A stretch of DNA of 39,120 nt. It comes from Anaerolineae bacterium (GTDB lineage Bacteria > Chloroflexota > Anaerolineae > Anaerolineales > Villigracilaceae). The position numbers and the translations under genes are program-made. Positions 1,941-20,945 of the stretch are shown here, one piece after another. Numbering within the stretch: position 1 is the first letter of the stretch; every line of letters starts with the position of its first letter. The notes under the pieces are model-generated. The model saw nothing but the letters and a program-made list of their open reading frames with translations. It ran no database searches and had not been told where the DNA came from. Location of the stretch: the NCBI GenBank assembly GCA_021324435.1, contig JAJPIZ010000013.1:1-39120 (forward strand), given 5' to 3'.

Positions 1941-2729
1941 TCATGGACAGTATGAGGTCACTTTGGTTTGTGCTGAAGTGCCGTAAGAGTTATAGGCCGC
2001 GACTCCATAGGTAATATTACCGCTTGGCAGGCTTGGATTTAAATGATTAAGCCGGGTGTTTTGTTGTTGGGATATTTGATTTCCATTCTCGTAAACGTAA
2101 TAGCCATCTGCCCCGCTAACATTGCTCCATGTCAACTCGACGTCGCGGCCCGGAGGCGTGCAATCCGTTTGGATTGTCAGATTTGAGGGTTGGGACGGAG
2201 CCAGAACGCTGTACAGGCCCGGGTTGACTAAGATGGGATTTGGGTTGACCACAGCGGCGCTTGTTGCCGTTGGAGAGGACTTGTTCTTCGGCACTTTGGT
2301 GGGATTCTGCGCGACCGTAGTCGGCGGTGGAGCGGGCGGCACCATTTCAGCCAATGTGCTTGTGTCACCCTGTACTGCGGCGTAAGCGCCCCATAGCCAG
2401 CACGTTCCGCCAGTGGGCGTTTTTATGATCCAGTAATTCGATGGCGTATATTTGCCCACGACTTCTGCGGTCTGGCCCGGTTGAAAGACTAGGACGAGAT
2501 CATAATTTGTACCTGGGCCGGTGCGGCAATTGGTTGCTGTGCTGACCGTTACGAACACTGTGGATGAAGTGGTGGGCGTAGACGTTGCCGCAGTTGCTTG
2601 TTCGGTCCCTGCGATGGCCGTGAGCACCGCGTCTGTGTTCGGTTTCTGTGATGGGAGATTGCAGGCTAATGCGGCAAGCACGAGAGCGATAACTGCTAAA
2701 GTGAATTTTTTACCAATGAAGTCTTTCAC
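1941..2729 (-). CDS. SH3b-Fn3 lipoprotein, paralog 1
   Basis: This predicted surface lipoprotein of 262 residues has a signal peptide ending in a lipobox with Cys23 (LAALAC). A low-complexity Thr/Pro stretch leads into a bacterial SH3 domain (about 58-122, with NCRTGPG and CWLWG). A Pro-rich linker follows, then a C-terminal fibronectin type III-like domain (about 185-262). Initiation is at GTG, with AGGAG six bases upstream. It is the most downstream of five tandem paralogs on this strand. Four cysteines are shared by all members, two in the SH3b and two bracketing the Fn3 domain, which suggests disulfides. SH3b domains often bind cell wall or protein partners; the ligand here is unknown. 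Confidence 0.85.
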   Translation of the reverse strand: MKDFIGKKFTLAVIALVLAALACNLPSQKPNTDAVLTAIAGTEQATAATSTPTTSSTVFVTVSTATNCRTGPGTNYDLVLVFQPGQTAEVVGKYTPSNYWIIKTPTGGTCWLWGAYAAVQGDTSTLAEMVPPAPPPTTVAQNPTKVPKNKSSPTATSAAVVNPNPILVNPGLYSVLAPSQPSNLTIQTDCTPPGRDVELTWSNVSGADGYYVYENGNQISQQQNTRLNHLNPSLPSGNITYGVAAYNSYGTSAQTKVTSYCP

Positions 2730-2826
2730 GTCGAACTCCTTTCATTTCATGTATTATTTTGTTCCATTGTGTCTGTGCAGGCAATCCCCATCATGTACCA
2801 AAATACTGAAGCGGTTCGGTGAATAA

Positions 2827-2865
2827 AAAAGATGACGGTCACCTTTGAAGTGGCCGTCATCTTTT
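2827..2865 (-). terminator. Intrinsic terminator of paralog 2
   Basis: A 16-bp stem with a single U-G wobble (2827-2842 with 2850-2865) has a 7-nt loop. On the minus strand it is followed by a run of T. It lies just past the stop codon of the gene at 2875-3666. Confidence 0.88.
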
Positions 2866-2874
2866 ACGCTTATG

Positions 2875-3666
2875 TTAAGGGCAGGTCGAAAAACTTACTT
2901 CTTTGATTACCGAACTGCCATAACTGTTGTAGGACGCAACTCCGTAGGTCCATGTTGTGCCGCTGATAATCAGCCCAACATCGAACTCGTCTTTGTAAGA
3001 AGTGGTGTTGGGGCCGACATTTGCAAGCAATGAGCCATTCTTGTAAACGGAGAAACCTTCTTCGTTGTTTGAGTTATCTTTCCAGGTGATCTTCACCGTC
3101 CAGTGGTAACTAATGATCCAGAAGTTGCCGACTTTGTGCGAGTTGTTGACGCTATTGCAACTGTAGTTCACGCCCTTGGGCGGATTCGGCGCGGTTGGTT
3201 CAGGCGTTGGGGTGGGCGGAAGCGGCGGCGGAACCATCTCCGGTAATCCGCTGGTGTCGCCGACGACAGTGGCGTATTGCCCCCACAGCCAGCAGGTATT
3301 TCCGCCTCCGCCCGGGTACTTGATAATCCAATAATTCGAGGATGTATACTTGCCGATCACCTCTGCGCTAAAACCGGGTTGGAATAACATCACAAAGTCA
3401 TAATAGACGCTTGGGCCAGTGCGGCAGTTGGTGTCCGAACTGACTGTCACGGTTGGCGCGGTCGCGGGCGGAGGGACTGTGTTGGTGGGGATGCCCGACT
3501 GCGCCTGTTGCGTGGCCGCATTGATGGTCTGCACGGCCAGCGTCAGCGCCTCGCTCAAATTCACTTGCCCCGATGGCTGTGTCGGCGCGCTGACGGAAAT
3601 ATTGCAGGCCAGCGCGATGAGCACCAGGGCGCTAAGAAAAGCAAGAGTGATCTTTTGTGTTCTCAT
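2875..3666 (-). CDS. SH3b-Fn3 lipoprotein, paralog 2
   Basis: This is a 263-residue lipoprotein with Cys21 in the lipobox (LIALAC). The SH3b domain spans roughly residues 73-140 and carries the same NCRTGP and CWLWGQYA motifs as its neighbour. A Pro-rich linker and an Fn3-like domain ending in Cys-Pro follow. AGGAG precedes the ATG at a good distance. Among the five copies it looks closest to paralog 1: both share a YGVA-YNSYG block near the C-terminus. The gap to the upstream paralog 3 is only 32 bases without a terminator, so the two are probably co-transcribed. Function beyond envelope attachment cannot be read from the sequence. Confidence 0.84.
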   Translation of the reverse strand: MRTQKITLAFLSALVLIALACNISVSAPTQPSGQVNLSEALTLAVQTINAATQQAQSGIPTNTVPPPATAPTVTVSSDTNCRTGPSVYYDFVMLFQPGFSAEVIGKYTSSNYWIIKYPGGGGNTCWLWGQYATVVGDTSGLPEMVPPPLPPTPTPEPTAPNPPKGVNYSCNSVNNSHKVGNFWIISYHWTVKITWKDNSNNEEGFSVYKNGSLLANVGPNTTSYKDEFDVGLIISGTTWTYGVASYNSYGSSVIKEVSFSTCP

Positions 3667-3698
3667 ATCTTCTCCTCGTGTCTACTATATCGCAAAAA

Positions 3699-4388
3699 TT
3701 ATTTGCAAACAAAACCTTCTACATGTTGAGCGGATTCGCCCGCGCTGTTGAAGGCCGCGATGCCGTAACTGATGCTTCCGCCAATGGCGATAAATGTGTT
3801 GTCGGTGTAGGTAGTTGTGTTGGCTGGGAGTTCTGCCAGAAGAGCGCCATTGCGATAGAGATGAAAGCCGGCCTCGTTGTTGGACGAGTCGCTCCAGGTG
3901 AGGGTCGTGGTCAAGATGCCATTGGGGCATTCGAAATGATAGAAAAAATAAACCGGGCGGGCGGGGATCGTGGCGTTCTTATCAACAACAGGTGTGCTGG
4001 CGGGCAATAAAGATGGATTGCCTCCCGAAACTTTTCCCAGTTCGCCGAGCACCCAACACTGAGCGTTGCCATTCGGCGCGTTCACAATCCAATACTTTCC
4101 GTCTGAATATTGAGATACGATTTGAACCGATGTGCCCGCGGGAATCACGACGATGATCGGGTAATTCGTTCCGGGGCCGGAACGGCAGTTGGTGTCATCG
4201 GTCACCGTCAGAATGGGTGAGCCGGGTGGAAAGGAGGGAGTCGCAGGTCCGGCCTGAAGCGTGAGCGCCACCACCGTCGCGGCCTGATCGGCAGGCGATA
4301 ATCCTTTGGATGGGATCGGCAGGTTACATCCCCAGGCGAAAAGGATCAGGAGTAGAAATAAAATCAGAACCTTTGGGAAGGATTTCAT
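3699..4388 (-). CDS. SH3b-Fn3 lipoprotein, paralog 3
   Basis: This is a lipoprotein of 229 residues when started at 4388, where a GGAGA box lies just upstream; an ATG four codons earlier at 4400 is possible. The lipobox Cys is residue 21 (LFAWGC). A short linker precedes the SH3b domain (NCRSGPG, then CWVLGELG), and an Fn3-like domain (TLTWSDSSNNEAGF) ends with Cys-Lys. The linker between domains is shorter and less proline-rich than in paralogs 1 and 2. It is the second member of the five-gene array. No enzymatic motif is present. Confidence 0.82.
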   Translation of the reverse strand: MKSFPKVLILFLLLILFAWGCNLPIPSKGLSPADQAATVVALTLQAGPATPSFPPGSPILTVTDDTNCRSGPGTNYPIIVVIPAGTSVQIVSQYSDGKYWIVNAPNGNAQCWVLGELGKVSGGNPSLLPASTPVVDKNATIPARPVYFFYHFECPNGILTTTLTWSDSSNNEAGFHLYRNGALLAELPANTTTYTDNTFIAIGGSISYGIAAFNSAGESAQHVEGFVCK

Positions 4389-4487
4389 CGCATTCTCCAT
4401 CTACAGAACCGGCCAATGGACCGATTGGTCTGACTATTTTCGCACAGAAGCCGGAGAAATCAAATCCCAGAAAAGGACTATTCAAAA

Positions 4488-4523
4488 CCCAAAGGCCCCG
4501 CTTTGGAGCGCGAGGCCTTTGGG
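4488..4523 (-). terminator. Intrinsic terminator of paralog 4
   Basis: A 10-bp GC-rich stem (4488-4497 with 4514-4523) can extend with an inner CGC/GCG pairing. On the minus strand a TTTT tract follows. It lies immediately after the stop codon of the 4530-5297 gene. Confidence 0.8.
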
Positions 4524-4529
4524 GAGTCG

Positions 4530-5297
4530 TTACTGACAGGTAAAGGTGATCGTGCGTTGTTGCGATGTGCCCACATCGTTGTATGCCTCAACGGCGTATG
4601 TGACCGAGCCGCCAGAGTATGACGCTGTATCAGTGTATGAGGTTGAATTGGCAGGCAAGTCTGCGATCAGCGTGCCGTCTCGATAGACGCGATATCCGTT
4701 TTCGTTATCGGCGCTGTCTTTCCATGTCAGCGTGGTATTGAGACTTCCGAACGAACAGGAGTAATTGTAAAACAGGCTTCCGGGTCGGGCCGGGACCGTT
4801 TGAGCGGGAGCCTCGGGCGTGACCTCTTTCACTGCCTCGTAATCTCCGCTGGGCGTGGCGTATTGACCCCAGACCCAGCAAGTCTCCTCGGTGTTCGGAA
4901 TCTTCACCAGCCAGAAATTGTTGGCCGAGTCTTTACCGAGGATATCCAGTTTGGTTCCAGGCACGAAGGCCGTAACTACCTTGAAGTTCTGACTTGGACC
5001 TTCGCGGCAGTTGCTGTTTTGATCAATGGTCAGGGTGGCTTTCACCGCGGTGGGCGTGACGGTGACGGTAACAGTGGCCGCGGCGGTGGGGGGCGCGGGG
5101 GATGCAAAAGGAACGCCCGATGTGGCTGTTGCCCCAGAGGCCGTTGGAAGACCCTGAGCTTGCAAAGTCTTCGCCACAATGGTCGCGGCCGCGTCGCGCG
5201 GGTCGTTCGATGATTGTTCGGGGATGCCGATGTTGCAGGCCAGCGCGGCAAGGATCAGAATGCAAAAAGCGGGAATAATCTTTTGGACGGGTTTCAT
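4530..5297 (-). CDS. SH3b-Fn3 lipoprotein, paralog 4
   Basis: This lipoprotein has 255 residues when started at 5297, where a GAGGAGA box sits five bases upstream; earlier in-frame ATGs at 5309 and 5333 lack such a site. The lipobox Cys is residue 21 (LAALAC). The SH3b domain carries NCREGP and CWVWGQYA, and the Fn3-like domain (TLTWKDSADNENGY) ends in Cys-Gln. Its Fn3 half resembles paralog 3 most (shared LPANSTSYTD-like segment), which suggests duplication in steps. Its own terminator follows the stop, so it may form a unit with the upstream paralog 5, 23 bases away. Confidence 0.83.
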   Translation of the reverse strand: MKPVQKIIPAFCILILAALACNIGIPEQSSNDPRDAAATIVAKTLQAQGLPTASGATATSGVPFASPAPPTAAATVTVTVTPTAVKATLTIDQNSNCREGPSQNFKVVTAFVPGTKLDILGKDSANNFWLVKIPNTEETCWVWGQYATPSGDYEAVKEVTPEAPAQTVPARPGSLFYNYSCSFGSLNTTLTWKDSADNENGYRVYRDGTLIADLPANSTSYTDTASYSGGSVTYAVEAYNDVGTSQQRTITFTCQ

Positions 5298-5320
5298 GAC
5301 TCTCCTCATCTCATCCTTCG

Positions 5321-6067
5321 CTATTTCGTACAAAGTTGATTCGTTGTAATGGTCTGTCGCGGAGAGGCGCCGGCGTCATTGTAAGCCTCCACGCTGTACC
5401 TTAATTGTGTGCCAACGATGATTTCGGTCTCGTCTTTGATCGTCGTAATGTCAGCGGGCACATCTGCGATTTGAACATCATTGCGATAGACGCGGAAGCC
5501 GTTCGCATCGTGACCGATATTCATCCATGAAATTTGAATCGTCAGTTTGTAGTGAACGTCACGCAGATAAGTGCAGTAATACGGCCAGCTGATCGGGCCG
5601 GGAATCGTTGGGAGTTTTCCCGCAACGGGCTGCGGCGTGACTTCCGGCAGGGATTGAAAATTTCCCGCCGGAGAGCCATCCTGCGCAGAGACCCAGCACA
5701 TGTCCGCGCTGTTGGGAACCCTGACCAGCCACGCGCTGGCAGGCGTATCTCTGCCGATTAATTCCACGCTCATGCCGGGCGTGAAGGTAGCAATCACTTT
5801 GAAGTTGCTGGTTACTCCGCTTCGACATTTGGCATTGACGTTGATGTACAACATTGGCTGAGCGGTCGGCGAGGGGAGCGGTGACGGAAGCGGTGTGGGC
5901 GTGCTGGCGCTCGCGGTTTGGGTGACAGACTCAAAGGTCAATGCAACGAGCGTGGCGGCTGCGTCGTTAATTGTCAATGGTGTTGGCGTTGTTGCACCCG
6001 TGCTGCAGGCTGAGGCAAGGATGATCAACGCGCTTGAAAGGGTCAGCGCAGCTTTATTCAATTTCAT
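5321..6067 (-). CDS. SH3b-Fn3 lipoprotein, paralog 5 (most divergent)
   Basis: This is a lipoprotein of 248 residues from the ATG at 6067, which gives a clean signal peptide with lipobox Cys21 (ILASAC). A longer reading from 6136 would overlap hmgA and put charged residues ahead of the signal. No strong ribosome binding site is seen. The SH3b domain has CRSGV and CWVSAQDG, so the usual Trp-Gly after the second Cys is lost. The Fn3-like domain ends in Leu-Cys-Thr-Lys. It lies 44 bases after hmgA, so read-through from the catabolic operon into the lipoprotein array is possible. Confidence 0.8.
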   Translation of the reverse strand: MKLNKAALTLSSALIILASACSTGATTPTPLTINDAAATLVALTFESVTQTASASTPTPLPSPLPSPTAQPMLYINVNAKCRSGVTSNFKVIATFTPGMSVELIGRDTPASAWLVRVPNSADMCWVSAQDGSPAGNFQSLPEVTPQPVAGKLPTIPGPISWPYYCTYLRDVHYKLTIQISWMNIGHDANGFRVYRNDVQIADVPADITTIKDETEIIVGTQLRYSVEAYNDAGASPRQTITTNQLCTK

Positions 6068-6111
6068 TTTTTGAATCCGCGGTTCGATATTTTTTTCGCA
6101 AGTCAGCGCGA

Positions 6112-7278
6112 TTATTCTCCGTCGCCTTCCAGCCACGAAGCCATGTATTCCGACTTTTCCATTTGAACTGCCTGTTTGGTGAGATGCAACGGATAAAATG
6201 TATCCACCATCACGGCCAGTTCGGTCGTTTCTTTTTTGCCAATGGAGGCCTCGGTCATGCCGGGTTGCGGACCGTGGGGCAGGCCGTATGGGTGCATACT
6301 GATGTCGTACTGGTCAATGCCTTTGCGCGACATGAAATTACCTTCGGCATAATAAATCACTTCATCCGAATTCACGTTGGAGTGATTGTACGGCGCGGGA
6401 ATGGCTTCGGGGTGATAGTCGAAGAGGCGCGGCACGAAGGAACACACGACGAAGTTGTGGCCCTGAAAGGTTTGATGCGCGGGCGGCGGCTGATGGACTC
6501 GTCCGGTGATTGGTTCGAAGTCTTCGATATTGAAGATCCACGGATACAGATAACCATCCCAGCCGACGACATCGAACGGATGATGATCCAGTTCGTGACA
6601 CGAGAGGCGATCACGCACCTTTATGCGGACCTCGAAGTTGCCGCGCTCCGTGTGCGTTTCCAACTCTTCGGGCACACGGATATCGCGTTCCGAATACGGC
6701 GCGTGTTCGAGCATTTGACCGTAGTCGTTGCGGTAGCGTTTGGGTGGTTCGATCTGAGACGGATTCTCAATTGTAAAAAAGCGCGCTTCCTTGCTGTCCA
6801 GTTTCATCTGCCACGTGGTTCCAAAGGGAATCACGATATAGTCGCCTTTGCGGAATGGCAGGTTGCCGAACTGAGTCTTCAGCACGCCGCTGCCTTCATG
6901 GACCCACCAGGTCTCATAGGCTTGCGCGTTGCGATAAAAGTAATCCATGCTCTTGGTGGCGCGGCAGACTCCGAGGATCACGTCGTTGTTGCCGAGGAGA
7001 GGAATCTTTGCAGAAACAGGGTCCGCTCCGAGCGGGGCCTGAGCCGTTTTGAAGGCGCGGTGGCGGATGGGGCCGAAGTCTACATATTCGGGTTTGAGCG
7101 ACCCCATGTCTTCGGTCTTCGTCACGCGCGGGGGGAGGAAATGATGATAGAGGATGGATTGGATGGAGGAGAAACCCTCCAGGCCCATCAATTCTTCGCG
7201 ATAAAGTCTGCCATCGTTCTTTTTGAACTGCGTGTGACGTTTGTGTGGGATTTTACCGAGCTTATGATAGAAAGGCAT
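6112..7278 (-). CDS. hmgA: Homogentisate 1,2-dioxygenase
   Basis: This is a cytosolic non-haem iron cupin that opens the homogentisate ring to maleylacetoacetate in tyrosine degradation. The protein has 388 residues, shorter than the roughly 430-445 of animal and proteobacterial enzymes. The C-terminal cupin shows the likely iron ligands His299 and Glu306 in an HSNVNSDE motif and His335 in GLPHGP, which matches the family pattern. A GGDYIVIPFGT-like turn (here KGDYIVIPFGT, about 144-154) marks the N-terminal cupin. AAAAGGAG precedes the ATG. It lies 14 bases after the AhpD-like selenoprotein gene and is the last catabolic gene of the operon. Presence of hppD and fahA nearby supports the assignment. 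Confidence 0.92.
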   Translation of the reverse strand: MPFYHKLGKIPHKRHTQFKKNDGRLYREELMGLEGFSSIQSILYHHFLPPRVTKTEDMGSLKPEYVDFGPIRHRAFKTAQAPLGADPVSAKIPLLGNNDVILGVCRATKSMDYFYRNAQAYETWWVHEGSGVLKTQFGNLPFRKGDYIVIPFGTTWQMKLDSKEARFFTIENPSQIEPPKRYRNDYGQMLEHAPYSERDIRVPEELETHTERGNFEVRIKVRDRLSCHELDHHPFDVVGWDGYLYPWIFNIEDFEPITGRVHQPPPAHQTFQGHNFVVCSFVPRLFDYHPEAIPAPYNHSNVNSDEVIYYAEGNFMSRKGIDQYDISMHPYGLPHGPQPGMTEASIGKKETTELAVMVDTFYPLHLTKQAVQMEKSEYMASWLEGDGE

Positions 7279-7292
7279 TCTACACTCCTTTT

Positions 7293-7886
7293 CTAAACAA
7301 TAAATGGACGCTTGCCGATCAGAGCGTGATGTGTTTCCTCATCTAATTCTTTATAAAAGGCATCCGGGTCTGCGCCGAGCGCATCGAACACCTTGCTGAC
7401 AAACGAGCGCGCCGCCGCGGCCAACGTGATGCTGAGAATATCCTGATCAGTCCAACCGGCTTTTCGCAGTTTGTCGAAGTCGTCCTGCGTGGTGGAAGGC
7501 GCGTCGCGCACGACTTTCTGCGCGTACTCCATCATGACCACTTCCTTTTCTGCGAGACCGGCGTGACGGAAATCTTTTGCAATGGCTTCCAGTTGTTCGG
7601 CTGCGAAGAAATTTTTACGGAGCACCGCTCCGTGCGCGAGCATTCAGAATGTGCATCCCATTTCCATCGCCGCGGCTAGTGTGGTCAGTTCATAGTCGCG
7701 CAGGCGCATGTTTTTCCGGACGGATTTGATCAGCGCCTTCCAGCCTTCCCAGGTTTCGGGAAGCAGGCTGAAACTGCGGGTCGTGTTTGAAACCTGCCCA
7801 TCCTCTTTGATGTCTTGATCGTAAAATTCACGCAGTTTACCAGTCGCCTCTTGATTGGGGACGGTTTTAATGAAAAAGCCCATCAT
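7293..7886 (-). CDS. AhpD-like (CMD family) selenoprotein, in-frame UGA as Sec81
   Basis: Read through one in-frame TGA (7646-7644), this gene encodes 197 residues, the usual size of peroxidase-related carboxymuconolactone decarboxylase/AhpD proteins. Without readthrough, the 80-residue front part ends inside the active site and the back part lacks a ribosome binding site. Glu66, Cys78, Sec81 and His85 have exactly the spacing of Glu118, Cys130, Cys133 and His137 in mycobacterial AhpD, so TGA replaces the second Cys of CxxC. A SECIS-like hairpin follows. AAGGAG precedes the ATG pair at 7886/7883. Expected role: thiol/selenol peroxidase or disulfide reductase in the cytosol; substrate unknown. 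A nonsense mutation or base-call error is the alternative, but everything downstream stays intact. Confidence 0.85.
7617..7633 (-). promoter_or_regulatory. Candidate bacterial SECIS hairpin
   Basis: On the minus strand a perfect 7-bp stem (7633-7627 with 7623-7617) carries a GGU loop (7626-7624). The loop begins 17 nt after the UGA codon. The E. coli fdhF element has the same distance from UGA to its apical loop, and its loop also contains GGU. The bulged U of the E. coli stem is not evident. The hairpin is read through as codons of the protein, as in all bacterial SECIS elements. Confidence 0.75.
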
Positions 7887-7901
7887 CGCTCCTTGTCTTC
7901 A

Positions 7902-8390
7902 CTATAAATCAGAATACGAAACGTATAATTTTGAACTTTGCGAACGCGCACTTTTCAATGCAGAACTTGCTTGTTGAATCAATACCTCCGCCGAGAGGTT
8001 GGAACCGCCGAGACTGGTCGTCAGACCGATGCGTAACGCGAGAGTGTACGACTCTCCGCCTTCGGTAGTAAATGGACCTTTGAAAATGGATACCATACGC
8101 TCGCATACCGCGCATCCGCCTGTTTCATCGGTAGTTGGCAGAAGCACGAAGTAATCTTCTTTGAAATGCGCCGGGATATCTGCCGACCGCAGACGCGAAT
8201 TGAGCAGAACGGCGATCTGGGACTCTGCCGCCCTGGCAATTTCGGGCGTGTTGGGTTGAGGTTCAATGGTCATGTCCAGTAATGAGAGCGGATTCGGATA
8301 CCGCTGTGAACGGTTAACTTCATAATCCAAGAGGATTTTGAACACGTCCCATGAATATAACGTCATGCCTTGCGCATCATCTCTTTTCAC
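7902..8390 (-). CDS. Degenerate GGDEF-domain protein
   Basis: This 162-residue soluble protein has the outline of a stand-alone GGDEF fold: an N-terminal LYSWDVF...LLDYEVNRSQRY helix, an LSLLDM strand, and a LRSADIPAHFKEDYFVLLP segment at about residues 68-84. At the signature position the catalytic GGDEF is KEDYF (77-81), so diguanylate cyclase activity is not expected; it may bind a nucleotide or a partner. GTG at 8390 is preceded by GGGAGG; an ATG at 8366 is a weaker alternative. It sits 15 bases before the selenoprotein gene and 26 after a lipoprotein gene within the homogentisate operon. A regulatory role there is only a guess. Confidence 0.65.
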   Translation of the reverse strand: MKRDDAQGMTLYSWDVFKILLDYEVNRSQRYPNPLSLLDMTIEPQPNTPEIARAAESQIAVLLNSRLRSADIPAHFKEDYFVLLPTTDETGGCAVCERMVSIFKGPFTTEGGESYTLALRIGLTTSLGGSNLSAEVLIQQASSALKSARSQSSKLYVSYSDL

Positions 8391-8416
8391 GGCGGCCCTC
8401 CCGAGGGTCCATCTGT

Positions 8417-9280
8417 TTACGGCGCGACTTGCAGTGATTGTATCAGTGAGTCGAGCAGAGTAAGCGAAGGAGTAAACGATCCCGGTGCGGCGGCATTGAG
8501 TTTATCGGTAATCGCGGCCAGATAGTTGTTGTAAGTCTCCGGCTGAGGGGCGTTCAGATCCGGGAAGGGAACCCCATCCGATGGGATGCTTGCCGATGGA
8601 TCACTGCTCGCAGCCAGAAACGGCGCGCCGATGGGCAGAACTGCTATGATGTAGAATGTCCCGTCGTTGGTGAAGCCCTCGAAGTGATAGAACAATCCTT
8701 CGTTCGAGATCGGACCGATGCCCTGCGCGTATTGCGTAACTGTGCGCAGGCCCGCGCCGCTGGCAAAGGGAATGATCTTGGTTTGCGCGTCAATGACCTG
8801 ATCCGCGTTGAAATAAGGCACGCGCGGCATGATGTCCAGTGTGATCGGCGCGGATGGATTTGCCAGAATATTCTCCAGCCGCGAGACGCTGAAGTCCGCG
8901 CCCGCGTAAACATTGGCGTAATCCTGTTTCGGGTACACCCTGATCTCAGCCAGCGAAAATTTCGCGACTGAATTGTTGTATCCATTCAATGTGAACTCGA
9001 GGTGAGCGGGCGCAACCTCCCATGGCGCGCCGCTCGTTTCATCCACCGCCGCGACTTGTTTACCTGATGCGCCGTCGGCCAGTCCTTCCGGAATCACAAA
9101 ACTGATATTTTGGAATGCAATGCGGATTCCGCTCGATTGTGTCGGCGCGACCGGAGTTAGAGCCTGCATCGTCGAGGCGACGATGGTCGAGACGTTATCT
9201 GCTTGCTGGGTTGCTGTGCCCGACTCGCAAGCCAGCGTTGCGAAAATCAGCGCCAGCATCCCCGCCCAAAGTCTTTTCAT
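8417..9280 (-). CDS. Lipoprotein of unknown function in the homogentisate operon
   Basis: This is a 287-residue lipoprotein with lipobox Cys18 (FATLAC) and a short Gln/Thr-rich linker, as in the SH3b array. The mature part is a single globular region with no motif I recognise. The start at 9280 has GGAGGGG eight bases upstream and overlaps the fahA stop in an ATGA arrangement, which implies translational coupling; longer in-frame readings into fahA are shadows. A segment around residues 84-130 (LEFTLNGYN...VYPKQDYA) suggests a beta-rich fold. Its place between fahA and the GGDEF-like gene is intriguing, but the function is unknown. Confidence 0.8.
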   Translation of the reverse strand: MKRLWAGMLALIFATLACESGTATQQADNVSTIVASTMQALTPVAPTQSSGIRIAFQNISFVIPEGLADGASGKQVAAVDETSGAPWEVAPAHLEFTLNGYNNSVAKFSLAEIRVYPKQDYANVYAGADFSVSRLENILANPSAPITLDIMPRVPYFNADQVIDAQTKIIPFASGAGLRTVTQYAQGIGPISNEGLFYHFEGFTNDGTFYIIAVLPIGAPFLAASSDPSASIPSDGVPFPDLNAPQPETYNNYLAAITDKLNAAAPGSFTPSLTLLDSLIQSLQVAP

Positions 9281-10161
9281 TTTTTGTCCCCTCCAACCGT
9301 GTTTTTCAAAACTCCCAGTCGTTCGATTTCTAACTCGACCACGTCGCCGTGATTCAGCCATGGGCCTTGTGCCTTGGTCAATTCAAGCAGACAGCCTGTT
9401 CCGACTGTGCCCGATCCAATCACATCGCCCGGAAGAAGCGTCACACATTCGGATGCGCGGGCGATAATATCGCCAAACGACCAGTACATGTCTTTGAAAT
9501 TTCCACGCGATCTCTCCACGCCATTGACTCGCGCCCGCATCTCCAACTCATAGACCCCGGGCCGGCCCGCCGATTTATCGGCCAATTCCTCCGCTGTGAC
9601 GATGTACGGCCCAAACGCGGAGGCGAAGTCTTTCCCCTTTGCCGGGCCGAGGCCGACCTTCATCTCTTCGCGTTGTATGTCGCGGGCGGACCAATCGTTG
9701 AAGATGGTGTAACCGAAAATATGCTTCGGTGCATCTTCGGCTTTGATGTCCATGCCGGGTTTGCCGATGACCGCCGCGACTTCCAGTTCATAATCCATTT
9801 CCTTTGTGTATGGAGGATAGGGGATTTCGTCCTCCGGCCCGAAGATGTTGTTGGGATTGGTGAAGTAGAAGATCGGGAACTTATACCATTCGGCGGGAAC
9901 TTCGCGTCCGCGATTGGCGTTGGCGGTCTTGACGTGGGTCTCGAAGGCATAGCCGTCGCGCAGCGTGGTGGGACGGAGCGGCGAATGCAGTCTGACTTCT
10001 GCAAAAGGGAAAGACGCTTTTGACGCGTGCCGCGCGGCTTCGTCCGCGCCGGCTATGATGACGGCGCGCATGTCGGCGTAAGGCAGAGGGTGGACTCGGT
10101 TTTCTTTGACGAGGCCCGGCTGAGGCGGAGTCTGAGGCGTGGAAAAGGTCACGAATTTCAT
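9277..10161 (-). CDS. fahA: Fumarylacetoacetate hydrolase family protein
   Basis: This is a 294-residue member of the small FAH superfamily that hydrolyses C-C bonds of acylpyruvates and fumaryl- or maleylacetoacetate in the cytosol. The metal-binding motif is visible as Glu125-x-Glu127 (DYELEVA) plus Asp156 (FNDWSARD), followed by the KGKDF...FGP segment (about 176-185) typical of the family. It lacks the N-terminal domain of the 420-residue eukaryotic enzyme. Clustering with hppD and hmgA assigns it to the last step of tyrosine breakdown to fumarate and acetoacetate. No gene for maleylacetoacetate isomerase lies nearby, so it may act directly on maleylacetoacetate. The gene start has only a weak ribosome binding site. 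Confidence 0.88.
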   Translation of the reverse strand: MKFVTFSTPQTPPQPGLVKENRVHPLPYADMRAVIIAGADEAARHASKASFPFAEVRLHSPLRPTTLRDGYAFETHVKTANANRGREVPAEWYKFPIFYFTNPNNIFGPEDEIPYPPYTKEMDYELEVAAVIGKPGMDIKAEDAPKHIFGYTIFNDWSARDIQREEMKVGLGPAKGKDFASAFGPYIVTAEELADKSAGRPGVYELEMRARVNGVERSRGNFKDMYWSFGDIIARASECVTLLPGDVIGSGTVGTGCLLELTKAQGPWLNHGDVVELEIERLGVLKNTVGGDKK

Positions 10162-10200
10162 ATTTTATCGGTGGAAGGTTTGAAAGTTGAAAGTCAAAAA

Positions 10201-10230
10201 GTTGGCAGGTTAACTTGTCAACCTGCCAAC
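10201..10230 (-). terminator. Terminator or attenuator between hppD and fahA
   Basis: A perfect 11-bp stem (10201-10211 with 10220-10230) with an 8-nt loop is followed on the minus strand by TTTTT. It lies 16 bases past the hppD stop and 39 before the fahA start, so it would reduce or stop read-through from hppD into the rest of the cluster. Flanking bases form a further imperfect pairing. Confidence 0.75.
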
Positions 10231-10246
10231 CTGAAACTTTGAACCG

Positions 10247-11392
10247 TTACAGATTGCCGCGCTTTTCCTGTTCCAGTTCCAGCGCTTCGAACAGGGCTTT
10301 GAAGTTGCCTTTGCCGAAGCTTTGGGAACCGTGACGTTGGATGACTTCGATGAACATGGTGGGGCGATCCTGGATGGGTCGCGTGAAGATTTGAAGCAGG
10401 TAGCCTTCATCGTCGCGGTCCACGAGGATGCCGAGTTCATGAATGGTCTTCATGTCCTCGTCAATTTTTCCGACGCGCTCCGGCAGGATTTCATAATACG
10501 TATCTGGCACGCGCAGAAATTCCACGCCGTTATCGCGCAACTGCGCGACGGTCTTGAGGATGTCTCCGGTGATCAGCGCGATGTGTTGTGCGCCGGGTGT
10601 GAGATAGTAATCGAGATATTCTTCGATCTGACTTTTCTTCTTGCCCTCGGCAGGTTCATTGATCGGGAACTTGACGCGGCCGTTGCCGTTCTGCATCACC
10701 TTCGACATGAGCGCGGAGTATTCAGTGGAGATGTCTTTGTCGTCGAAGTGCATGAGTTGGCGGAAGCCCATCACTTTGTGATAGAAGTTGACCCATTCGT
10801 TCATCTTGCCGAGTTGCACGTTGCCCACGATGTGATCCACGGCGGCCAGGCCCGTAGATTGAGCTTCTTTATCTTTGATGGGGCGGTAGGTCGGAGCGAA
10901 GACGCCTTTGTAGTCGGCGCGATCTACGAACACGTGCAACGTCTCGCCGTAGGTGCGAATGGCAGATGTGCGAAAGATGCCGAAGTCATCCTTCTCTTCG
11001 CGCGGCGTCCATGCAGATTTGCCGCCGCGTGAAGTGGTTTCCTTCCAGGCTTTTTCAACATCGTCCACTTCCATGGCGATGACTTTGACGCCGTCACCGT
11101 GCACCATGTGATGCGCGGCGATTTCGCTGGTGGGGCTGTATGGCGCTGAGATGACAAACCGCGCCTGCCCGGACTCTAAAACGTACGAGGCAAATTCGCG
11201 GTTGCCTGTCTCCAGGCCTGAGTAGGCGACCGGTTTGAAGCCAAACGCTTTCCACCAGTAATACATGGCGTGTTTGGCGTTACCAACATAAAAGTGGACG
11301 TGGTCAATGGATTTGATCTGCAGGAAGTCGGCTTCCTCGGTCATGGGCCGGGAATCGGCGACGGGCGCAGATTTAGATGCGGTTTTAGTCAT
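10247..11392 (-). CDS. hppD: 4-hydroxyphenylpyruvate dioxygenase
   Basis: This Fe(II) enzyme converts 4-hydroxyphenylpyruvate to homogentisate, the step before HmgA. The 381-residue protein has two vicinal-oxygen-chelate domains (about 26-160 and 180-345). The iron ligands are visible as His187 (AAVDH), His270 (GAQHIAL) and Glu349 (FIEVIQR). The C-terminal helix GNFKALFEALELEQEKRG is a hallmark of the family. AAAGGAG stands in front of the ATG, and a good sigma-70 type promoter lies 28 bases further upstream. It is separated from fahA by a hairpin, so it is probably the first gene of the cluster and expressed above the rest. Confidence 0.96.
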   Translation of the reverse strand: MTKTASKSAPVADSRPMTEEADFLQIKSIDHVHFYVGNAKHAMYYWWKAFGFKPVAYSGLETGNREFASYVLESGQARFVISAPYSPTSEIAAHHMVHGDGVKVIAMEVDDVEKAWKETTSRGGKSAWTPREEKDDFGIFRTSAIRTYGETLHVFVDRADYKGVFAPTYRPIKDKEAQSTGLAAVDHIVGNVQLGKMNEWVNFYHKVMGFRQLMHFDDKDISTEYSALMSKVMQNGNGRVKFPINEPAEGKKKSQIEEYLDYYLTPGAQHIALITGDILKTVAQLRDNGVEFLRVPDTYYEILPERVGKIDEDMKTIHELGILVDRDDEGYLLQIFTRPIQDRPTMFIEVIQRHGSQSFGKGNFKALFEALELEQEKRGNL

Positions 11393-20429: not shown

Positions 20430-20945
20430 TCAACAATCGAATACGAACCAACAGATTTTGTTGCGCAACTTCTGGTCGTCAAGCACAAGGTCCCGGATTT
20501 CGCCTGGAAGTTGTGCGCGTTGCCATTCGCACTCAAGGCGGCCTGCTTCTTCAGCCCGACCGTCAAGCGCCGCCGAACGCGCGGCCTTGATCGCATAAGC
20601 TGCCGCGCCAAGCTCGTGTGCAGCAACATGCGCTACCACTGCCGCCTGACCGGCAGCATACGCGGCAAAACGCGCCGCCCCACTTAGATCCCTCGCTGCG
20701 CCCATTGCATGACCGCCTCGCGCGCGTGTTTCCATCATTTTGAGTTCTCCATGTGCCCACGCGCGAACTGCTTCAATTGCCTGCCGTGGGCGTGGATCAT
20801 TTGGCCGCACCGACTCGAATAGCGGAAGGACGTGCTCCGCGCATATGGCTGCCCATACCGCAAGCAGGTGATGATCAGAGTCTTGGAGGGTGCCGCCGCG
20901 ACGCACAGTGATGAATCTGGGGTCCCGCTTCTTTGGCAATATCAT
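20430..20945 (-). CDS. Imm5-like putative immunity protein
   Basis: This is a 171-residue, very Ala/Arg-rich helical protein that matches what I know of the Imm-5 type putative immunity family: an N-terminal PKKRDPRFITVRRGG motif, the LLAVWAAICAEHVLPLFE helix and a RPRQAIEAVRAW motif. In polymorphic-toxin loci such proteins neutralise a cognate toxin, but no toxin gene is adjacent here, and many homologs are orphans. It is followed by 132 bases without a gene (20298-20429). Its ribosome binding site is weak (GAAGA). Confidence 0.65.
   Translation of the reverse strand: MILPKKRDPRFITVRRGGTLQDSDHHLLAVWAAICAEHVLPLFESVRPNDPRPRQAIEAVRAWAHGELKMMETRARGGHAMGAARDLSGAARFAAYAAGQAAVVAHVAAHELGAAAYAIKAARSAALDGRAEEAGRLECEWQRAQLPGEIRDLVLDDQKLRNKICWFVFDC

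Follow-up and report, generated by a model that had tools for sequence, protein, structure and literature searches.

In the genome of an Anaerolineae bacterium (Villigracilaceae), two minus-strand open reading frames, 7886-7644 (80 amino acids) and 7643-7293 (116 amino acids), lie in one frame with a single TGA between them. The arrangement, found in the window (the whole stretch of 39,120 nucleotides that was analyzed), raises the question of whether the pair is the remains of a broken gene or a single selenoprotein gene. As read from the sequence, the locus combines a read-through frame, the selenocysteine (Sec) machinery in the genome, a codon that encodes only Sec or Cys among relatives, and a hairpin linked to TGA. 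We therefore favor, with a probability of roughly 0.88, the reading that SelB and tRNA-Sec decode the TGA as selenocysteine, directed by the hairpin just downstream, and that the product is a full-length, all-helical AhpD-like enzyme with catalysis at Sec81. Automatic annotation would misread such a gene as broken or as a pair of fragments, where there is almost certainly one selenoenzyme.

One reading frame and the genome that probably decodes it

Reading through the TGA joins the two frames (7886-7293, minus strand) into a product of 197 residues with Glu66, Cys78, Sec81, and His85. The TGA is codon 81 (7646-7644) and sits where the CxxC site of AhpD-type proteins has its second cysteine. 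The corresponding residues in AhpD from Mycobacterium tuberculosis are Glu118, Cys130, Cys133, and His137, described together with a five-residue proton relay (PMC3141380), and the spacings of 12, 3, and 4 residues are the same in both proteins. The same-frame pair across one TGA, the position of this TGA at the second cysteine, and the AhpD-like spacing had all been proposed in the original prediction and were borne out here; the observation is confirmed, and its interpretation as a selenoprotein supported. Inspection by eye also identified a Shine-Dalgarno-like AAGGAG (7894-7889), which leaves a gap of only 2 nt to the ATG at 7886 but 5 nt to a second ATG at 7883. Because the motif suits the second ATG better, translation may start at 7883 rather than 7886, in which case Sec would become residue 80 of a 196-residue protein. 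The features of the locus are collected in Table 1.

Table 1. Features of the AhpD-like selenoprotein locus and of its gene neighborhood (window coordinates).
Feature	Position	Strand	Basis
AhpD-like selenoprotein gene (predicted), one TGA read through	7293..7886	-	joined ORFs; PF02627 and TIGR01926 matches
TGA codon 81, presumptive selenocysteine	7644..7646	-	TGA or TGC/TGT in 48/48 loci covering the codon
Cys78, presumed resolving residue	7653..7655	-	Ser in 59/80 relatives (best 80 of 232)
Glu66, counterpart of AhpD Glu118	7689..7691	-	invariant in 47/47 aligned; numbering as in PMC3141380
His85, counterpart of AhpD His137	7632..7634	-	invariant in 47/47 aligned
AAGGAG, likely ribosome-binding site	7889..7894	-	read by eye
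SECIS-like hairpin	7617..7633	-	7-bp stem, GGU loop, loop 17 nt after TGA
Divergent homogentisate 1,2-dioxygenase-like (hmgA-like) gene	6112..7278	-	PF20510 37.4 bits; TIGR01015 51.7 bits, cut-off 510.75
GGDEF-domain gene, weak match	7902..8390	-	PF00990 26.7 bits, cut-off 23.8
Fumarylacetoacetate hydrolase family gene	9277..10161	-	PF01557 214.4 bits; TIGR01266 (fumarylacetoacetase) 79 bits, cut-off 375.3
4-Hydroxyphenylpyruvate dioxygenase (HPPD)	10247..11392	-	TIGR01263 440.8 bits, cut-off 277

The original prediction had proposed searching the genome for selA, selB, selC (tRNA-Sec), and selD, and all four were found in the assembly, which comprises 3.1 Mb in 51 contigs and is 97.3% complete: selA with 548 bits (cut-off 268), selB with 347 bits (cut-off 242), selD with 350 bits (cut-off 125), and tRNA-Sec with 68.3 bits (cut-off 47), the last also identified by ARAGORN as tRNA-SeC with the anticodon tca. 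Among 14 control genomes for each search, matches above the cut-off occurred in five for tRNA-Sec, two for selB, two for selD, and one for selA. The tRNA-Sec search gave below-cut-off matches in all 14 controls besides the five above the cut-off, and a match alone is not fully specific. TGA terminates six of 27 hand-picked open reading frames of the window and is thus not generally reassigned. Elsewhere, tRNA-Sec scored above the cut-off in four of the five other TGA-bearing genomes of the family that were tested (not in G429, 85% complete), in three of the four Cys-bearing genomes tested (not in G203, 76% complete), and also in both tested genomes of the same genus that are without the AhpD-like gene. 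The selD frame of the window's genome (L047, G000:C28:26110-27042) itself carries one in-frame TGA, and SelD is probably a selenoprotein too.

Active site, family, and predicted chemistry

To compare the site among relatives, the protein was searched in 298 genomes of the class, giving 68 hits in 56 genomes, and in 152 genomes of the family, giving 21 hits in 16 genomes, with two hits common to both lists. Loci were read for 49 of the 87 distinct hits, and site 81 is covered in 48 of them, the window included; L093 does not cover the site and was left out, and 38 of the 68 class hits carry no reading of it. Codon 81 is TGA in 36 of the 48 loci and TGC or TGT in the other 12, without any other residue, so that the homolog comparison suggested with the original prediction returned only Sec or Cys and no random residues. 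The AhpD-like gene is absent from all five other genomes of the same genus that were searched.

A first scan with the single protein returned no relative, and a scan of named genomes with the alignment A2 returned 232, of which the best 80 were kept. Site 81 is TGA in seven and Cys in 73 of these best 80 of 232 relatives, counts that lean to Cys because one of the two patterns of the A2 scan held Cys at this site; the class and family counts (87 distinct hits) are free of this lean. Among the same 80, residue 78 is mostly Ser (59 relatives), with Cys in 19 and Gly in one; one relative does not cover it. For the alignment A3, 46 of 78 usable relatives were taken, making 47 members in all; L122, aligned from residue 80 only, was left out of A3 and of the tree, and L179 is absent from A3 owing to the start/stop rule. 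Arg63, Glu66, residue 81, and His85 are among the 12 invariant columns of the 47 aligned proteins. Across the 48 loci, the Glu66 column shows Met in three and Gln in one, perhaps through alignment slips. The reading frame 3' of the TGA is conserved among the relatives. In one TGA-bearing relative (L081:566-1411), the protein continues for about 85 further residues at its C terminus; this extension contains two CxxC pairs and might be a zinc-ribbon or a reducing domain.

Since 59 of the 80 relatives have Ser at 78 while residue 81 stays Cys or Sec, Sec81 would be the essential nucleophile. The selenium-bearing residue thus appears to be the fixed one and its partner at 78 the expendable one, which points to one-nucleophile chemistry in this AhpD-like branch.

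As for the family, the protein scores 31.3 bits against the Pfam CMD domain PF02627 (cut-off 23) and 75.5 bits against TIGR01926 (peroxidase-related enzyme), 6 bits short of the cut-off of 81.8. TIGR01926 is matched by all 47 members of A3 at E 0.001, a count made without per-member cut-offs. The profile of canonical AhpD, TIGR00777, gave no match to the window protein at E 0.001 and is matched by six of the 47 members. Two profiles of (seleno)proteins, NF041238 (AhpD_rel_CFYUT; 26.1 bits, cut-off 175) and NF053654 (YciW-related; 26.4 bits, cut-off 310), show weak similarity across the Sec site, both far below the cut-off.

AhpD-like selenoproteins had been named in the original prediction as already reported, and this holds. 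The Sargasso Sea survey of 2005 (PMC1088965) gives 27 AhpD-like selenoproteins with CxxU and four with a CMD domain; the GOS survey of 2008 (PMC2398784) gives AhpD-like 1 (299) and AhpD-like 2 (70, pfam02627), both with CxxU; and a 2026 review (PMC13188914) lists an AhpD-like protein with TIGR01926 and CxxU. A survey of 2006 (PMC1794560) counts three selenoproteins in Chloroflexi and two AhpD-like ones (COG2128) overall. The window protein shares with the CxxU proteins, as these sources describe them, the AhpD/CMD core, Sec at the second position of CxxC, the existence of Cys homologs, and a SECIS-like hairpin, but it falls below the TIGR01926 cut-off and its nearest relatives form a group of Sec, CxxC, and SxxC forms. 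It is therefore a new and somewhat divergent member of a kind of selenoprotein in print since 2005. No title or abstract that we screened recognizably concerned a Chloroflexota protein of this AhpD-like group.

We modeled the protein with AlphaFold2 from the 47 aligned sequences, with Sec as Cys (pLDDT 94.8, pTM 0.91). The predicted fold is AhpD-like. The closest matches are the peroxidase-related AhpD-like proteins 2prr, 6k40, and 2oyo, with Z of about 22 over 183-184 residues. The proteins from Deinococcus radiodurans (6k40_A, Z 22.2) and Deinococcus geothermalis (2oyo_A, Z 22.1) share the fold over the whole length, with an rmsd of 1.9-2.0 over 183 residues, but only 22-25% identity, and the window protein differs in having Sec at 81. 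M. tuberculosis AhpD (1gu9, 1knc) shares the Glu/Cys/Cys/His spacing, with Sec replacing the second Cys, whereas its fold is matched only in part (Z of about 10 over 132-138 residues) and its profile TIGR00777 is unmatched.

A tree was built from 54 rows, with Rhizobium thinned and 10 other loci added by hand; its program flags that long branches meet. The Sec label needs seven changes on it and the label of a non-Cys residue 78 needs two, of which the starred branches force four and two, respectively. In the close clade, the Sec rows are the window, one genome of its family, and otherwise Chloroflexota; the forms with Cys or Ser are spread over several phyla. The deep forks are unsettled, so that the tree does not fix the direction of each Sec/Cys change.

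Family and predicted fold together suggest a selenol-based peroxidase or reductase. We infer that Sec is actually inserted at codon 81 and that a Glu66/His85 relay would activate the Sec81 selenolate, which would attack a peroxide or another oxidized substrate. Cys78 would then resolve the oxidized selenium as a selenenylsulfide, and a thiol donor would presumably serve as the electron donor and regenerate the enzyme; in relatives with Ser78, a thiol from outside would have to resolve it. Peroxide is the somewhat favored substrate of the Sec81 enzyme. A selenoprotein with non-peroxide chemistry, acting as a general disulfide reductase or through some other nucleophilic, thiol-type reaction, as maybe other AhpD-fold enzymes do, is a serious though less probable alternative. 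The frequent Ser78 among the best 80 of 232 relatives implies that a two-Cys peroxidase cycle is inessential to the subfamily, and the fold has a further match in the debrominase Bmp8 (6ohj, Z 17.3; named from PDB titles). On the other hand, the top matches in both structure and sequence are peroxidase-related AhpD-like proteins, even though such annotations do not imply an experimental test.

Genomic neighborhood and a possible link to tyrosine degradation

The selenoprotein gene lies 15 nt downstream of the GGDEF gene and 14 nt upstream of the hmgA-like gene on the same strand. The genes for HPPD and a fumarylacetoacetate hydrolase family protein precede it, also on the same strand, in a tyrosine-degradation cluster spanning 6112-11392. 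Co-transcription of the selenoprotein gene with its neighbors is likely. Relatives of hmgA occur in 37 of the 298 genomes of the class, and 30 of the 37 hits were read as loci. Weak maiA matches were obtained in nine of the 298 genomes, always below the cut-off and never in one of the 37 with hmgA. Because not one of these 37 has even a weak maiA match, the class seems generally to do without maiA. The homogentisate clusters of the class are thereby notable for having no recognizable maleylacetoacetate isomerase.

The neighborhood suggests a further role, in which the inserted selenoprotein was recruited in this lineage to tyrosine degradation as a glutathione-independent maleylacetoacetate isomerase: the Sec81 selenolate would add to maleylacetoacetate and isomerize it, replacing the glutathione-dependent MaiA. 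The position directly before the hmgA-like gene in a cluster with HPPD and fumarylacetoacetate hydrolase family genes would fit such an enzyme, as would the lack of any maiA match in the window's genome and the single fixed nucleophile with residue 78 free to be Ser. We nevertheless regard this role as very doubtful. None of the other 29 hmgA-like loci read encodes an AhpD-like protein within 1.5-kb flanks or the contig limit, the search of all 30 loci yielding two chance matches of 19-20 residues with E above 0.01; another nine genomes contain AhpD-like as well as hmgA hits, but never on the same contig; and maiA is missing from the hmgA genomes whether or not they carry this gene. No conserved neighbor was found for the close homologs elsewhere, either by eye or in blastp clusters, although some neighbors recur within Rhizobium; the neighboring open reading frames were picked by a greedy rule on length rather than by a gene finder, and GC-rich loci are possibly misread. 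A functional isomerase link to hmgA was accordingly rejected, the adjacency occurring only in the window's genome among the 298 class genomes searched and the 30 hmgA loci. A literature search retrieved no glutathione-independent maleylacetoacetate isomerase.

Two related genomes bear on how the gene came to its place. In G233, of the same genus, a relative of the GGDEF gene (55% identical) ends 23 nt before hmgA with nothing selenoprotein-like between them, so a single gene was either inserted in the window's genome or lost in G233. In G179, of the same family, a GGDEF relative (39%) likewise stands directly before hmgA with nothing selenoprotein-like between. The selenoprotein gene appears to be a single-gene insertion between the GGDEF and hmgA-like genes, and its placement beside the latter is probably incidental.

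Two other parts of the window's minus strand are worth recording. The products of five adjacent open reading frames at 1941-6136 look by eye like lipoproteins that resemble one another; they share a repeated Asn-Cys-Arg-x-Gly-like segment and apparently form a tandem family. The only one scanned (5321-6136) had no Pfam match. A frame at 20430-20945 encodes an Imm-5-like putative immunity protein (PF21805, 128.9 bits).

A SECIS-like hairpin that accompanies TGA

Returning to the proposed decoding of the TGA as Sec, the codon is followed by 10 bases and then by a 7-bp stem whose GGU loop has G at its first two positions; the 48-nt stretch has a folding energy of -14.4 kcal/mol. The constraints on bacterial SECIS elements printed in PMC13188914 comprise a loop of 3-9 nt with G at its first two positions, a stem of 4-16 bp, a spacing of 16-37 nt, and an MFE of at most -7.5, and the hairpin, judged by its sequence only, falls within all of those printed there. 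Taken alone, the hairpin does not stand out from shuffled sequences (z -0.75). With random synonymous codons, the six core pairs arise in 4.2% of cases and all seven pairs in 0.56%, and a perfect stem equally long occurs in 16%. An Rfam search gave no match above the gathering score in the window, and within 7400-7900 only two snoRNA matches at chance level.

Folding energy was tried as a test for SECIS elements over 48 loci and proved uninformative, the mean being -11.6 kcal/mol after TGA and -15.4 kcal/mol after Cys, opposite to the expected direction; it was replaced by a pair-by-pair test. The six core pairs are complete in all seven close TGA loci (window included) and in none of five close Cys loci. 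Among the best 80 of 232 relatives, they are complete in all seven with TGA and in none of the 73 with Cys, one of which reaches five pairs. When both sets are merged and shared loci counted once, the core is complete in 9/9 TGA and 0/74 Cys loci, which are related by descent and do not count as independent trials. The hairpin thus goes with TGA across a sharp Sec/Cys switch among close relatives. Across the class and family hits, the core is complete in this register in 12 of 36 loci with TGA; the remaining 24, all distant, are without it and may use other stems.

That an ordinary AhpD-like gene with CxxC has been hit by a nonsense mutation or a miscall, a reading for which one could cite the TGC/TGT relatives (12/48) only one base away from TGA and the absence of the gene from the five other same-genus genomes, is hardly credible given TGA at the same codon in 36/48 loci, the conserved downstream frame, the complete hairpin that goes with TGA, and selA, selB, selC, and selD in the genome, and a sequencing error in particular is unlikely because other genomes have TGA at this codon.

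A second, distant group of TGA-bearing AhpD-like loci (L012-L015, L034, L091, L092, L094, L097, and L098) has U followed by an HxHDLR motif and seemingly a different common stem with complementary CCTC/GAGG.
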